Shown: in pieces, positions 3,285-63,391 of the stretch | How positions within the stretch are numbered: position 1 is the first letter of the stretch | Layout: the number at the start of each line of letters is the position of its first letter | Source: Nitrospirota bacterium | Lineage (GTDB): Bacteria > Nitrospirota > Thermodesulfovibrionia > UBA6902 | Length of the DNA stretch: 64,000 bases | Reading direction: 5' to 3' | Assembly: GCA_016234115.1 (NCBI GenBank) | Contig: JACRHD010000008.1 | Span: 62,001 to 126,000, forward strand | Program-made: the position numbers and the translations under genes | The notes under the pieces: generated by a model | The model's database searches: none | What the model saw: the letters and a program-made list of their open reading frames with translations, nothing else | Told to the model about the DNA's origin: nothing

Positions 3285-3298
3285 CACTCAGGAGGAAC

Positions 3299-3655
3299 AT
3301 GTTCAGTAAAAACAGGCAGGCAAAGATAGAAAGAAATCAGGAAAGGGTCGACTCGGGCTTTATGTCCAAACACTTTCCGGACGTTACAAGCGTCGTTATC
3401 AGCATAATGTACAAACAGAGGGGGGCAAAATCGTTACTCCGGATCCTGAATTTTTCCTCGGACAGTTATGCTTTTTTCAAGGTGTCCTGCCTGAGTAACG
3501 ACTGTGTCAACGGCGGGTTTGATCTGACCCGAATTATAACCTCTATGATCAGAAACCACAGCGAGGCGTCAAAAGGAGAACTTGGTTGTGACGACAATGG
3601 TCCTCGTCCCGGTCACTCCAATATCGTCTACGAAGTCGCCATACAGTATACATAA
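3299..3655 (+). CDS. Conserved hypothetical protein downstream of csp
   Basis: This 118-residue cytoplasmic protein has no membrane segment. ATG 3299 follows GGAGGAAC, a good ribosome site, which supports it as a real gene. Seen motifs are HFPDVTSVVISI, a SCLSNDCVNGGFDLTRII block and a basic N terminus. I cannot assign it to a named family. It follows the cold-shock gene by 53 bases across a terminator, so it may be a low-level read-through product of that transcript. The cysteine pair in CLSNDC could bind metal, which is only a guess. Confidence 0.6.
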   Translation: MFSKNRQAKIERNQERVDSGFMSKHFPDVTSVVISIMYKQRGAKSLLRILNFSSDSYAFFKVSCLSNDCVNGGFDLTRIITSMIRNHSEASKGELGCDDNGPRPGHSNIVYEVAIQYT

Positions 3656-3888
3656 GAAAAGAGACCGGGGGCAAAATATCCGATGGCGCGGGCAGCGCGG
3701 CCCTGCAATATCGCCCCGCGTTCAGGGCCCGCCGCAACAACTCTTCGTCATTATGCCGCTTTCATTGCCTTACACAAATTATCACTTCTGAATTCCCGGC
3801 AGGCAGCCGATTTTATGATAGCTGTCGAATAGAAGCGCTGCACTGAATTCCCTTGCTATTAAATCACGGGGGGCCTACAATAATACAT

Positions 3889-4038
3889 ATGAAAGAAACA
3901 AAAATATATTGCGAGGACTTGGAGAAAAGGATTTATGAAGACGGGTGTTATGATGCCAAAGGTTCAACGATCTGCAAAGCCTGTTTAAAGAAGCCGGTCC
4001 GTAAAAAAGTCATCTGCATTGGTAAAGCTAAAAAATAA
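3889..4038 (+). CDS. Small Cys/Lys-rich hypothetical protein
   Basis: This 49-residue frame starts at ATG 3889 (MKETKIYCEDLEKR). A longer frame from 3853 has no ribosome signal. Four cysteines, including ICKAC, and a very basic tail ending IGKAKK suggest a small metal-binding or nucleic-acid-binding protein. No Shine-Dalgarno sequence is close, and I do not recognise the family. It may not be a gene. Confidence 0.35.
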   Translation: MKETKIYCEDLEKRIYEDGCYDAKGSTICKACLKKPVRKKVICIGKAKK

Positions 4039-4119
4039 GTTAAAAAAGCCGGGGCATCCGCATCTCTCCCGGTCTTTCCCGCTTCGCTTCCGGTCTGATC
4101 ATTTGCGCCATCGCTGCAA

Positions 4120-4156
4120 ATAAATAAAAAGGAAGACGGGATTTACCCCGCCTTCC
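4120..4156 (-). terminator. Intrinsic terminator of atpE
   Basis: On the minus strand a GGAAGGCGGG / CCCGTCTTCC stem (4131-4156 on the plus strand) ends in TTTTTATTT. It lies 32 bases after the atpE stop and closes the atpB-atpE unit. Confidence 0.85.
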
Positions 4157-4187
4157 CCGAGTGATATCTGAACTACCTCGTGCGGCA

Positions 4188-4541
4188 TTAGAAGCCGAAC
4201 GGTTTTGCAAAGAGAACGATCAAGACGACAACAAGGGCGTAAATACAGAGGGACTCAATCATCGCGAGACCGATAATAAGGGTCGTAGTGATCTTTCCCG
4301 ATGCGCCCGGGTTTCTCGCTACACCTTCCGCAGCCTTGCTGAGACCGATTCCCTGACCGATGCCGGTCCCGAATGCGGCAAGTCCGATTGCCAGACCGGA
4401 GCCGAGGACCGCCCATCCGAAATATCCCATCTTCGCGTCAGACGCCGCTCCTTCAGCAGCAGCCTCTTCCGCCATCGCAATGGGGGCCATAAGACAGATC
4501 AGGGTGAGAGACAATAGAATTGCTGTCAGTATCCTTTTCAT
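4188..4541 (-). CDS. atpE: ATP synthase F0 subunit c
   Basis: This is the 117-residue proteolipid of the rotary ring. ATG 4541 is chosen because AAAGGAGG sits directly before it; an ATG 15 bases further upstream lacks such a site. The N terminus (1-24, MKRILTAILLSLTL to AMA) looks like a cleavable signal peptide, seen in some c subunits. Two hairpin helices follow with the loop ARNPGA. The ion-carrying Glu is E96 in helix 2 (GLAMIESLCIYALV). Gln63 in GIGQG, Ser97 and Tyr101 match ligand positions of Na+-binding c rings, but the Thr after ES is Leu98. Coupling ion is therefore uncertain. It is transcribed after atpB. Confidence 0.95.
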   Translation of the reverse strand: MKRILTAILLSLTLICLMAPIAMAEEAAAEGAASDAKMGYFGWAVLGSGLAIGLAAFGTGIGQGIGLSKAAEGVARNPGASGKITTTLIIGLAMIESLCIYALVVVLIVLFAKPFGF

Positions 4542-4581
4542 GCTTCCTCCTTTCATCTGAACTTTTATTGCAAAAACTTAT

Positions 4582-5268
4582 TTAGTGTGCTTCTTCAACT
4601 GCACCGGCAAGATACAACGTCGTAAGCAATACAAAAACAAAGGCCTGTATCACGGAAACGAGCACACCCAGCGCCAATATCGCCGACGGCACTATCGCCG
4701 GGGCCAGCAGTCCCAGTATAAGGATTATCTTGTGCTTCGCTATCATATTGCCGAATAACCGGACTGATAATGTCAGAGGCCTTGCAAGGTGACCGATAAG
4801 CTCGATGACGAACATGAGAATCATCAGCGGCAATGCCGGAAGCGACCGGATGGGGCCTACAAAGTGTTTTATATAAGCGAGCTTGTGTTCCCTGATCCCG
4901 TAGTAATGTGTGGTAAGGAATACAGGCAGCGCAAGCGCTACGGTTGTGTTTAAATTGCTTGTGGGGGCCTCGCAGCCGGGGATAAGTCCCAGGAAATTGC
5001 ATACGAGGATATAAATGCCGAGGGTCGCAATCAAAGGTACGAAGGTCATGCCCATGTGCCCGATGGAAGTTTCAGCGAGGTTTATAAAAAATTCCAGGAT
5101 AACTTCCATAAAGTTCTGGATCCCCGACGGGACCATCTTCAATGACGACCTCACCATGAGCGCGACAACGATGATGATCAAGGTGGCGACCCAGGAGAAA
5201 GCCACATAGGGTGGGATACCCATGGCTATGACAATATTTAATGGAAAGATTATAGGGGCTTCGTGCAT
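4582..5268 (-). CDS. atpB: ATP synthase F0 subunit a
   Basis: This 228-residue membrane subunit forms the ion half-channels against the c ring. The essential Arg is R170 in LTLSVRLFGNM. The FGNM motif, the conserved VIELIGHLARP segment (with E156) and the final VFVLLTTLYLAGAVEEAH are typical. Five to six transmembrane helices are visible. It is first in a two-gene unit with atpE, 40 bases apart. F1 genes, subunit b and AtpI are not adjacent, a split layout known from several deltaproteobacteria and relatives. A good sigma-70-like promoter lies at 5309-5338. Confidence 0.97.
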   Translation of the reverse strand: MHEAPIIFPLNIVIAMGIPPYVAFSWVATLIIIVVALMVRSSLKMVPSGIQNFMEVILEFFINLAETSIGHMGMTFVPLIATLGIYILVCNFLGLIPGCEAPTSNLNTTVALALPVFLTTHYYGIREHKLAYIKHFVGPIRSLPALPLMILMFVIELIGHLARPLTLSVRLFGNMIAKHKIILILGLLAPAIVPSAILALGVLVSVIQAFVFVLLTTLYLAGAVEEAH

Positions 5269-5308
5269 TGGGTTCCTTTTATTTTTTAAAATTGAAAAAG
5301 CAGTGACA

Positions 5309-5338
5309 ATAATAATCGAGCATATGTTCTCATGTCAA
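5309..5338 (-). promoter_or_regulatory. Sigma-70-type promoter of atpB-atpE
   Basis: Read on the minus strand, TTGACA (5333-5338) and TATTAT (5309-5314) are 18 bp apart and lie about 40 bases before ATG 5268. Confidence 0.7.
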
Positions 5339-5369
5339 GCACCAAATTTATGAATTTAAATTTTTTATA

Positions 5370-5428
5370 GTAGCGCCCTCATTTATTGGGGGCGGCCTTT
5401 TTCGTCGGGGATAAACCCCGACGCTACG
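5370..5428. repeat. Dispersed repeat (GTAGCGTCGGGGTTTATCC family)
   Basis: A 59-base unit with two small hairpins (GTCGGGG-CCCCGAC and a CCCCCAATAAATG-side arm). A near-identical copy in the opposite orientation lies at 33353-33412 upstream of the tetrahaem cytochrome gene. Confidence 0.75.
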
Positions 5429-5436
5429 AAACACAT

Positions 5437-5476
5437 AAAAAAAAGAGGACCCGGCTTTGGACCGGGTCCTCTTTTT
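5437..5476 (-). terminator. Bidirectional terminator after the 5S rRNA
   Basis: An 11-bp perfect stem, AGAGGACCCGG with CCGGGTCCTCT, is flanked by A and T runs on both sides. On the minus strand it ends in eight T about ten bases after the 5S 3' end. Confidence 0.85.
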
Positions 5477-49934: not shown

Positions 49935-51968
49935 ATGAAAGAATCAAAGGGAACTGATATCATGGGAGGAATTGCCGGGAAACCATTTGTTCCTCTTCTC
50001 CTCATAGCGATCATAGGTTCTCTGGCCTATTCAAACACATTCAGCGCGCCCTTTGCCTTTGATGACTTCGGCAACCTGGCAGACCCTCCCCTGATAAAAA
50101 GTCTCAACAACTTCTTTTTTCCCGAGGGTGGATACAAGGGTTACCTTCCGAGGGCGGTCGCATTCTTCACCTTTGCCCTGAATTATCACTTCGGGGGATT
50201 TGACGTTGCCGGCTATCATGCAGTCAATCTTGTTATCCACATAACCAATGCCCTTCTGGTCTACTTCCTTGTCGTTCTCACTTTCAGGACTCCGTATATA
50301 GTGGGGCAAGGGTCAGAGGGCAAGGGTCAGGGGGCAGGAGTCATCGATACCATCCCTCTTTCCCCCCTTAAATTAAGGGGGGATGAAGGGGGGTTATCTT
50401 CTCCTCGGTTTATCGCCCTTTTCTCCGCCCTTATTTTTGTGGCCCATCCCGTACAGACGCAGGCTGTGACATATATAGTCCAGAGGCTGACCTCGCTTGC
50501 CGCGATGTTTTACCTCTTCTCCATGGTGATGTATGTAAAGGCGAGGCTTTTAACGGCAGAGTCAAGAGTCAAGAGTCAAGAGTCAGACAACCCCCCTTTC
50601 TCCCCCCTTAAGTTAAGGGGGGAAGGGGGAGTTACCAAACTCTTAACTCTTAACTCTGTACTCTTTTACTCCCTGTCCCTCCTCTGCGCCGTTCTTGCGA
50701 TGCTGACAAAGGAAATGTCCTTCACTCTGCCGATAATGATAATCCTTTATGAGTTTACTTTTTTCAGGTCCTCGCTGAAAAAAAAGCTCCTTTTCCTTCT
50801 GCCTCTCTTGCTTACCCTGACAATCATCCCTCTTGGCATAATGGGCACGGAAAAGCCCCTCGGAGAGGTCCTGTCGGACCTGAGCGACAGGCTCAGGGTC
50901 CAGACGCGGATGTCGAGATGGGATTACCTCTTTACGCAATTCAGGGTGATAACCACATATATAAGGCTCCTGCTACTTCCCGTAAACCAGAACCTCGACT
51001 ATGATTATCCGGTTTATCATTCGTTCTTCACCCCGCCCGTATTTCTTTCTTTCCTCCTGCTGCTGTCGATTTTCGGGGTCGCGGTGTATGTGATGCGCAA
51101 AGCCGGAGCGGTCAGCAGTCAGCAATCAGCAATCAGCAATAACCCCCCTTTATCCCCCCTTAATTTAAGGGGGGAATATCGTCTCATCTCCTTCGGCATC
51201 TTCTGGTTCTTCATAGCGCTTTCCGTCGAATCGAGCTTTATACCCATTGTCGATGTGATATTTGAACACAGGGTCTACCTGCCGTCTGTGGGGGCCTTTA
51301 TCGCCGTGACAGCCGCCCTCTTTCTCATCGCGAATAAAATCAGTGACCGCCGGCAGGTTGCAGGCAGGGCGCTCATCTCCGCGCTTGCAGCAGTTGTAAT
51401 CGCCTTCTCAGGAGCTACCTATGCGAGAAATATTGTATGGCAAAGCGAGGAGGGTCTGTGGGAAGATATTGTAAGAAAGTCTCCGAATAATGCCAGGGCC
51501 TGGAACAACCTGGGCTATGTATATCTCGGCAAAGGTCTTGTCGAGGACGCCGCGGGATATTTTAAGTTTGCCCTGAGGCTGAACAATAATTATGCGGACG
51601 CCCATACCAATTTAGGCGTCGCTTACTACGGCAAAGGACTTACAGATAATGCGATACGACAATTTCAGATGGCCCTGAAGCTGTCAAATGTACCGGCGCT
51701 CGTTGCGAAGGCGCGTCATAATCTGGGGATAGCGTATTCGAGAAAGGGGATGCTCGATGACGCGCTGAGAGAGCTTGGGTCCGCCCTCAGGACAACTCCG
51801 GACGACCCGGAGATATACAGCGATCTCGGGGTGACGTACATGAACAAGGGGCAGTTTGATAAAGCAATAGAGGCCTTCCGGACCGCTCTGAAGCTGAAGC
51901 CCGACTATGACCTTGCGCGTCTCAATCTCGGCATAGCCCTGAAGCTTAAAGGCCGGACAGAGGGTTGA
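49935..51968 (+). CDS. Membrane protein with C-terminal TPR repeats (TMTC/O-mannosyltransferase-like)
   Basis: This 677-residue protein has an N-terminal multi-helix membrane region (about 20-500). Its motifs, AFDDFGNL, GYHAVNLVIHITNALLVY, HPVQTQAVTYIVQR, HRVYLPSVG and a YPVYHSFFTP loop, resemble the TMTC/GT-C family that transfers sugars to proteins on the outer face. Five or more TPR units (WNNLGYVYLGKGLVEDAAGYF onward) follow. Three loops contain repeat-derived peptides (near residues 124-155, 210-235 and 392-416). A dolichol-phosphate-mannose-synthase-like gene follows, a likely donor supplier. The exact activity is inferred. Confidence 0.8.
   Translation: MKESKGTDIMGGIAGKPFVPLLLIAIIGSLAYSNTFSAPFAFDDFGNLADPPLIKSLNNFFFPEGGYKGYLPRAVAFFTFALNYHFGGFDVAGYHAVNLVIHITNALLVYFLVVLTFRTPYIVGQGSEGKGQGAGVIDTIPLSPLKLRGDEGGLSSPRFIALFSALIFVAHPVQTQAVTYIVQRLTSLAAMFYLFSMVMYVKARLLTAESRVKSQESDNPPFSPLKLRGEGGVTKLLTLNSVLFYSLSLLCAVLAMLTKEMSFTLPIMIILYEFTFFRSSLKKKLLFLLPLLLTLTIIPLGIMGTEKPLGEVLSDLSDRLRVQTRMSRWDYLFTQFRVITTYIRLLLLPVNQNLDYDYPVYHSFFTPPVFLSFLLLLSIFGVAVYVMRKAGAVSSQQSAISNNPPLSPLNLRGEYRLISFGIFWFFIALSVESSFIPIVDVIFEHRVYLPSVGAFIAVTAALFLIANKISDRRQVAGRALISALAAVVIAFSGATYARNIVWQSEEGLWEDIVRKSPNNARAWNNLGYVYLGKGLVEDAAGYFKFALRLNNNYADAHTNLGVAYYGKGLTDNAIRQFQMALKLSNVPALVAKARHNLGIAYSRKGMLDDALRELGSALRTTPDDPEIYSDLGVTYMNKGQFDKAIEAFRTALKLKPDYDLARLNLGIALKLKGRTEG
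50304..50394. repeat. In-frame repeat insertion 1 in the membrane TPR gene
   Basis: GGGGCAAGGGTCAG units are followed by TTTCCCCCCTTAAATTAAGGGGGG, split here as a C-tract arm and a G-tract arm. It encodes QGSEGKGQGAG and PLSPLKLRGDEGG in a loop between membrane helices. Confidence 0.85.
50556..50666. repeat. In-frame repeat insertion 2 in the membrane TPR gene
   Basis: AGAGTCA units, a CCCCCCTT...AAGGGGGG palindrome and the complementary ACTCTTA units form a nested inverted repeat. It encodes NPPFSPLKLRGEGG. Confidence 0.85.
51111..51177. repeat. In-frame repeat insertion 3 in the membrane TPR gene
   Basis: CAGCAATCAGCAAT units are followed by CCCCCCTTTATCCCCCCTT and AAGGGGGGAA arms. It encodes NNPPLSPLNLRGEY in a third loop of the same protein. 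Confidence 0.85.

Positions 51969-59589: not shown

Positions 59590-63391
<3,802 letters not shown>

Follow-up and report, generated by a model that had tools for sequence, protein, structure and literature searches.

The gene at positions 49935-51968 of the window (the whole stretch of 64,000 nucleotides that was analysed) encodes a membrane protein and contains three copies of a C-tract/G-tract palindrome within its coding sequence. How can one gene hold repeat DNA three times and stay open from end to end? We propose, with a probability of about 0.8, that repeat DNA was inserted at all three stretches and is translated, and that repeats occurring throughout the genome persist in genes where a loop is free and the frame is open. 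Judging from the coding sequence, short repetitive DNA is apparently translated here as extra protein loops.

Three composite inserts in one membrane protein

The host gene and its inserts are as follows.

49935-51968, + strand: host gene, an intact ORF of 677 aa with a polytopic, possibly GT-C-like membrane domain and C-terminal TPRs
50303-50396, + strand: insert 1 (residues ~124-154, loop 1), a degenerate GGGGCAA/GGGTCAG array and a nested C/G palindrome
50362-50382, + strand: palindrome core 1, CCCCCCTTAAATTAAGGGGGG, encoding SPLKLRG
50558-50664, + strand: insert 2 (residues ~208-242, loop 2), an array, a nested palindrome and an inverted array
50558-50585, + strand: AGAGTCA x4 array, the left part of insert 2
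50602-50622, + strand: palindrome core 2, CCCCCCTTAAGTTAAGGGGGG, encoding SPLKLRG
50638-50664, + strand: right-hand inverted array of insert 2, with AACTCTT/AACTCTG heptamers
51107-51174, + strand: insert 3 (residues ~391-413, loop 3), a heptamer array and a palindrome
51107-51140, + strand: CAATCAG-type array of insert 3, with a period of 7
51154-51174, + strand: palindrome core 3, CCCCCCTTAATTTAAGGGGGG, encoding SPLNLRG

In each insert, a heptamer array came first and a nested C-tract/G-tract palindrome (AACCCCCCTTTNTCCCCCCTTAANTTAAGGGGGGA..) came next; one of the three also contained an inverted array. The original prediction had placed the palindrome family three times in this gene, in frame and each time behind a different short tandem sequence. 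This was borne out; the ORF was intact, with cores at 50362, 50602 and 51154, and the three arrays differed in sequence and shared a 7-base period. The unit was larger than first described, comprising an array, a palindrome and at times an inverted array, and the inverted array to the right of insert 2 had been overlooked. In that inverted array, a perfect third unit would create an in-frame TAA, whereas the real sequence was GTA. The array of insert 1 was degenerate, and its bounds (~50303-50343) were set by eye. The predicted peptide at the repeat included the residues NPPFSPLKLR.

Close matches to CCCCCTTAANTTAAGGGGG occurred three times in the window, all within this gene, compared with 0.04 expected from shuffles. 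The exact 21-mer had four copies in the 3.50-Mb genome, three of them in this gene. At the in-gene rate of the genome, 0.009 palindromes would be expected in one 2-kb gene, and the P value for three was 1.1e-7, or ~4e-4 after correction for 3300 genes. The three exact 21-mers out of four and the three palindromes of the same class in this single gene suggest local copying. The original prediction had also treated the three in-frame copies as separate events. The TTAANTTAA core was open in only one of three frames on each strand; therefore, the shared frame and the shared SPLKLRG/SPLNLRG peptide are forced once a copy survives and do not represent three independent choices. At the RNA level, insert 2 folded as a single long hairpin (z = -6.5), whereas the folding of inserts 1 and 3 was less unusual (z = -1.5 and -2.9, respectively). 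Rfam yielded no match of note, and none came close to the gathering score.

TPR family matches covered residues ~505-675, and the membrane domain comprised residues ~15-500. Pfam gave this domain no name, and a profile search against solved structures matched TPR proteins alone. In a Foldseek search, the solved structures closest to the membrane part were Pmt4, STT3/AglB and ArnT, all of which were weak matches (E 0.008-0.06, TM-score 0.33-0.47). The AlphaFold model of the 677-aa protein had a pLDDT of 87 and a pTM of 0.90. Its pLDDT fell below 50 at residues 1-7, 129-152 and 223-231 and was 55-68 at ~391-410; except for the N-terminus, these low-confidence parts were the inserts, modelled as disordered loops. 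Each insert lay between one pair of predicted helices (91-116/157-170, 181-216/239-256 and 367-399/411-432). The predicted peptides, predicted helices and low-pLDDT regions agreed with the original prediction of SPLKLRG- or SPLNLRG-type peptides in inter-helix loops.

In folds of the Pmt4/STT3/ArnT type, an acidic motif in the first loop points away from the cytoplasm; in the present protein, we take this motif to be FDD. The conserved flanks of the insert-bearing loops were rich in Arg and Lys (e.g., YIKxRL and YRSR). Considering the positive-inside rule, these flanks suggest that the loops are probably located on the cytoplasmic side.

Repeats at the same loops in homologues

An alignment with homologues had been set beforehand as the test of insertion against native sequence. 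Among 64 homologues, residues at the three insert sites were present in 0-20% of proteins, and the flanks were present in nearly all. The stretches are therefore insertions, and native sequence was ruled out because they were gaps in most homologues. The opposite outcome, i.e., the same residues at the same loops, did not occur; many homologues carried different repeats there. The few with residues at these sites mostly bore NPPSPPFDKGGMGGF, NSPLIKGGYRGV, SQQSAISDQQS or CLLPTACYF peptides, which were encoded by different palindromes and heptamers. In one same-genus genome (G008), the orthologue was 58% identical, and each of the three loops contained distinct heptamer-type sequences; it carried GAGTCAG/CAGTCAG arrays, CACGAAT x4 and a palindrome of its own in loop 1. 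An assembly artefact was also considered unlikely, since random mis-joins would break frames and dozens of independent assemblies showed the pattern.

Array and palindrome hits were mapped across 93 homologue genes; of the 100 in total, nearly all lay in five loops (residues 119-156, 204-246, 281-284, 387-416 and 467-487), and none was found in the TPR domain. The repeat-bearing loops were open in 87 cases and broken in 4 (96% in frame; p = 1.7e-36 against the one-third expected without selection); since the homologues are related, such p-values are optimistic and the number of independent events is overstated. Broken frames were found in 4 of the 91 repeat-bearing loops and in 2 of 448 other loops (Fisher p = 0.009). 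An orientation filter was also evident: arrays in the stop-poor orientation, with fewer stop frames on the sense than on the antisense strand, outnumbered the others by 59:1. For example, AGAGTCA and CAATCAG are free of stops in all three frames, and their complements are closed in every one. Many homologues had no insert at all, and the sequence, length and presence of inserts varied freely among close relatives and paralogues.

In a paralogue from the genome analysed (L183, G000:C44; minus-strand ORFs 3290-3814 and 3781-5451), the frame break coincided with loop 1 and fell within a heptamer array of the GGGGCAA type. In a homologue from a Geobacter MAG (L037, 4829-4945), a long heptamer array of 117 bases with GGATCGA/GGTTCGA units was present, indicating that the repeat pattern reaches outside Nitrospirota.

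Repeat density in the gene family

Runs with a period of 7 numbered 57 in 649 kb of homologue loci, compared with 0-10 for control periods. Array density per 100 kb was 24.8 in the family of the 49935 gene, 2.8 in other ORFs (a ~9-fold difference) and 7.0 between ORFs. The corresponding palindrome densities in these loci were 5.1, 0.26 and 3.0. Array density in the family thus exceeded even that of inter-ORF space (p = 4e-4), which hints at something beyond passive tolerance alone, such as preferred insertion, slow loss or retention, or use. We also asked whether such density is a property of any membrane protein. This was rejected, as other polytopic ORFs had 4.5 arrays per 100 kb (two arrays only) versus 23.4 in the family, a difference of ~5-fold.

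Spread through the genome

The pattern CCCCCTT(N1-7)AAGGGGG had 99 copies in the genome and 1 for the reversed control, and the AGTCA-type heptamer pattern had 173+153 matches compared with 12+10 in the control. In samples of 61 palindromes and 29 arrays, with in-gene calls made from ORFs and family matches, ~11 palindromes lay inside convincing genes (including the three in 49935-51968) and 18 arrays lay inside ORFs of at least 150 aa. The low fraction of palindromes inside convincing genes indicates that palindromes strongly avoid genes overall. In-frame palindromes were found in at least six other genes. Curated families identified hemH (330 bits) and proS (702 bits) as hosts of arrays or palindromes, and each had a single copy above the cut-off in the genome. 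The repeat-spanning predicted peptides were ESGVKSQELSSK in HemH and EPSPFVKGGDLEIPPLTK in ProS; the ProS palindromes fell in residues 243-286, between two parts aligned to PDB 2j3l. Further hosts with in-frame repeats were a fabF-type ketosynthase, waaA, lpxK, a P-type Ca ATPase, an acyl-CoA dehydratase activase, DinG/YoaA and ArsA. The pattern first seen in the 49935 gene is both family-wide and genome-wide and not peculiar to one copy.

Empty, filled and differently filled sites in sister species

The proS loop was compared across ten same-genus genomes. It was empty (69 bases) in five, contained C/G palindromes in three (G000, G005 and G007), and held a different in-frame repeat containing GTAGGGGCA in G004 and, in a shorter form, in G001 (L225, L226). 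Between the empty site of G008 and the filled site of G007, ~9 bases were replaced by ~39, a net gain of 30, and this one diverged pair showed no evident target-site duplication.

The two sites in hemH were followed across the order. All readable lengths were multiples of three (30/30 and 31/31, 61 in total). Together with the 87 open frames against 4 broken ones and the 59:1 orientation bias, these lengths give good support to the part of the original prediction that concerned tolerated loops and a frame filter. At site 2, 16 of 31 genomes had the empty length of 48 bases and 11 had exactly 63. Recognisable heptamer arrays were present in 9 of these 11 versions, with seven different units (CTCCAAA, ACGCTCA, GTTCCAA, ATTTCAA, TCAGGGG, GCCTCAC and ATTCAAG; L233-L263). 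Both hemH sites carried the same unit in G000, and likewise in G008. One possible but rather doubtful explanation is that heptamer arrays are rewritten in place to the current unit of the genome with their length kept; on the poorly resolved tree of the 31 hemH cores, many separate gains at a constrained length are an alternative to a single array origin with rewriting. If rewriting does occur, it would represent a new conversion process, with coding sequence in concerted evolution with other repeats.

Weighing the explanations

This genome and its relatives carry many degenerate 7-base arrays, with a genome-specific unit, and ~45-base nested C-tract/G-tract palindromes, often joined in the order array, palindrome and inverted array. 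Such repeats may arise, expand or land at many places. We postulate that, within a gene, a copy survives only if it alters the overall length by a multiple of three, can be read through without a stop and places its peptide in a loop able to take it. In the family of the 49935 gene, the permissive places would be the Arg/Lys-flanked, probably cytoplasmic loops between helices, which are apparently set apart from both the TPR domain and the conserved motif on the periplasmic side; these loops therefore seem to be refilled repeatedly in different lineages. Purifying selection would retain in-frame, stop-free copies there. The selection seen is purifying, and we infer that the insert peptides themselves are tolerated passengers. 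The suggested local copying within the 49935 gene falls outside this explanation.

Other explanations were weighed against this reading. If the repeats were contingency loci, array slippage would shift the frame and switch a surface-glycan-type protein on and off by phase variation. The 7-base unit is not a multiple of three, the gene family is an array hotspot, and broken frames, although few, are commoner in repeat-bearing loops and include the paralogue of the same genome. However, the arrays are short (3-5 units), degenerate and mostly in mid-gene loops rather than close to the start of the gene; the frame is kept in 96% of repeat-bearing loops, and palindromes do not slip. Arrays are also present in lpxK and in the single-copy hemH, two genes for which an off-state should be harmful or lethal. 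On this comparison, which rests on one genome per species, phase variation is quite improbable. An active small element of the MITE or REP kind, targeted to these loops and moved by a transposase, would account for the ~99 similar palindromes with a defined nested structure and for the presence of both empty and filled sites, and the genome contains six Y1-transposase (Y1_Tnp) matches. No palindrome lay within ~1.5 kb of these six genes, and RAYT mobilisation was rejected on this basis. Moreover, the one close empty/filled pair at proS, with ~9 bases replaced, showed no target-site duplication, the heptamer arrays lack element ends, and the recurrence of unrelated repeat families at one proS loop points to a permissive site more than to a targeting enzyme; we therefore consider such an element unlikely.

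Two further explanations concern the fate and use of the inserted sequence. The repeat RNA might be skipped by splicing or ribosome bypass, so that no peptide is made. Known bypass elements contain hairpins, and insert 2 is able to form a long one. Under skipping, frame and stops would be irrelevant, yet 87 of 91 loops are in frame, orientation is stop-poor by 59:1, the unit that would create a stop is altered, and Rfam gave no match of note; skipping is thus a very remote prospect. Alternatively, the loops may be functional, with repeats recruited because they serve as linkers or interaction tails or, as RNA hairpins, set the pace of membrane insertion. The density in the family, which is above that between ORFs and ~5 times that of other polytopic proteins, is consistent with such a role. 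However, sequence, length and presence differ freely among close relatives and paralogues, and many homologues are insert-free, which makes recruitment for a function improbable. Translated, tolerated insertion remains the preferred reading.

Relation to known repeat systems

Rickettsia palindromic elements (RPE) are short palindromes that lie in frame in unrelated genes, including metabolic ones, and are thought to be translated (PMC10969869; PMC3733652); they are ~150 bp long, have been described from Rickettsiales and have also been reported in Wolbachia. The present palindromes resemble RPE in being dispersed in many unrelated ORFs, with in-gene copies that are in frame, stop-free and gaps in homologues, a likeness of description and behaviour rather than of compared sequence. 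They differ from RPE in being ~45 bp (~100 bp with arrays), combined with heptamers, found in another phylum and concentrated in one membrane family.

Heptamer repeats are known from several bacteria. TAACTGA arrays of Beggiatoaceae occur in some ORFs and yield LSVISYQ peptide repeats, with in-ORF copies mainly at protein ends and in the stop-poor orientation (PMC4679880). In Nostoc, roughly a third of the heptamers lie within genes (PMC4692102), and polymerase slippage has been proposed for heptamer repeats (cited in PMC4679880). Like cyanobacterial STRRs, Beggiatoaceae TAACTGA and the GGGAATC-type repeats of Xanthomonas and Nostoc, the present units are dispersed 7-base tandems far above chance. 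Unlike TAACTGA, they are internal and in frame, occur in conserved single-copy enzymes and are paired with palindromes and inverted arrays; their unit also differs between sister species at one site. REP/RAYT and MITE sequences are also small dispersed palindromes, some of them inside ORFs (PMC3733652; PMC10969869); for the present palindromes, no link to a RAYT gene was found, and one diverged proS pair showed no target-site duplication. Phase-variable simple sequence repeats are similarly intragenic tandem units with a length that is not a multiple of three, whereas the present arrays are short, degenerate and nearly always in frame, in housekeeping enzymes too. Within the part of the literature covered, we found no description of in-frame composites of palindromes and heptamers in this lineage, of a hotspot in one membrane family or of same-site unit turnover.

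In-frame selfish or slippage-born repeats in essential enzymes have so far been known mainly from Rickettsiales, and the present case adds another phylum and many genes. The sister species offer empty, filled and differently filled states of one site; thus, the gain of loops by repeats can be tested, as can the origin and unit change of 7-base arrays and the question of which protein sites tolerate insertion. Caution is also needed with protein models and alignments from these genomes, which include repeat-derived loops.

Other repeat-bearing sites

A further in-frame copy of the palindrome family was located in the window.

61635-61653, + strand: palindrome of this family, in frame and close to the N-terminus of the predicted product of ORF 61577-63388, a second multi-pass membrane protein

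This ORF apparently contains another G-rich repeat further in. At positions 116-797 of the window, six C/G palindromes lay within ~700 bases, outside long ORFs. In lpxK (L197, 1267-2310), an AAGAGTC array and its inverted partner AACTCTT were ~50 residues apart in one gene.
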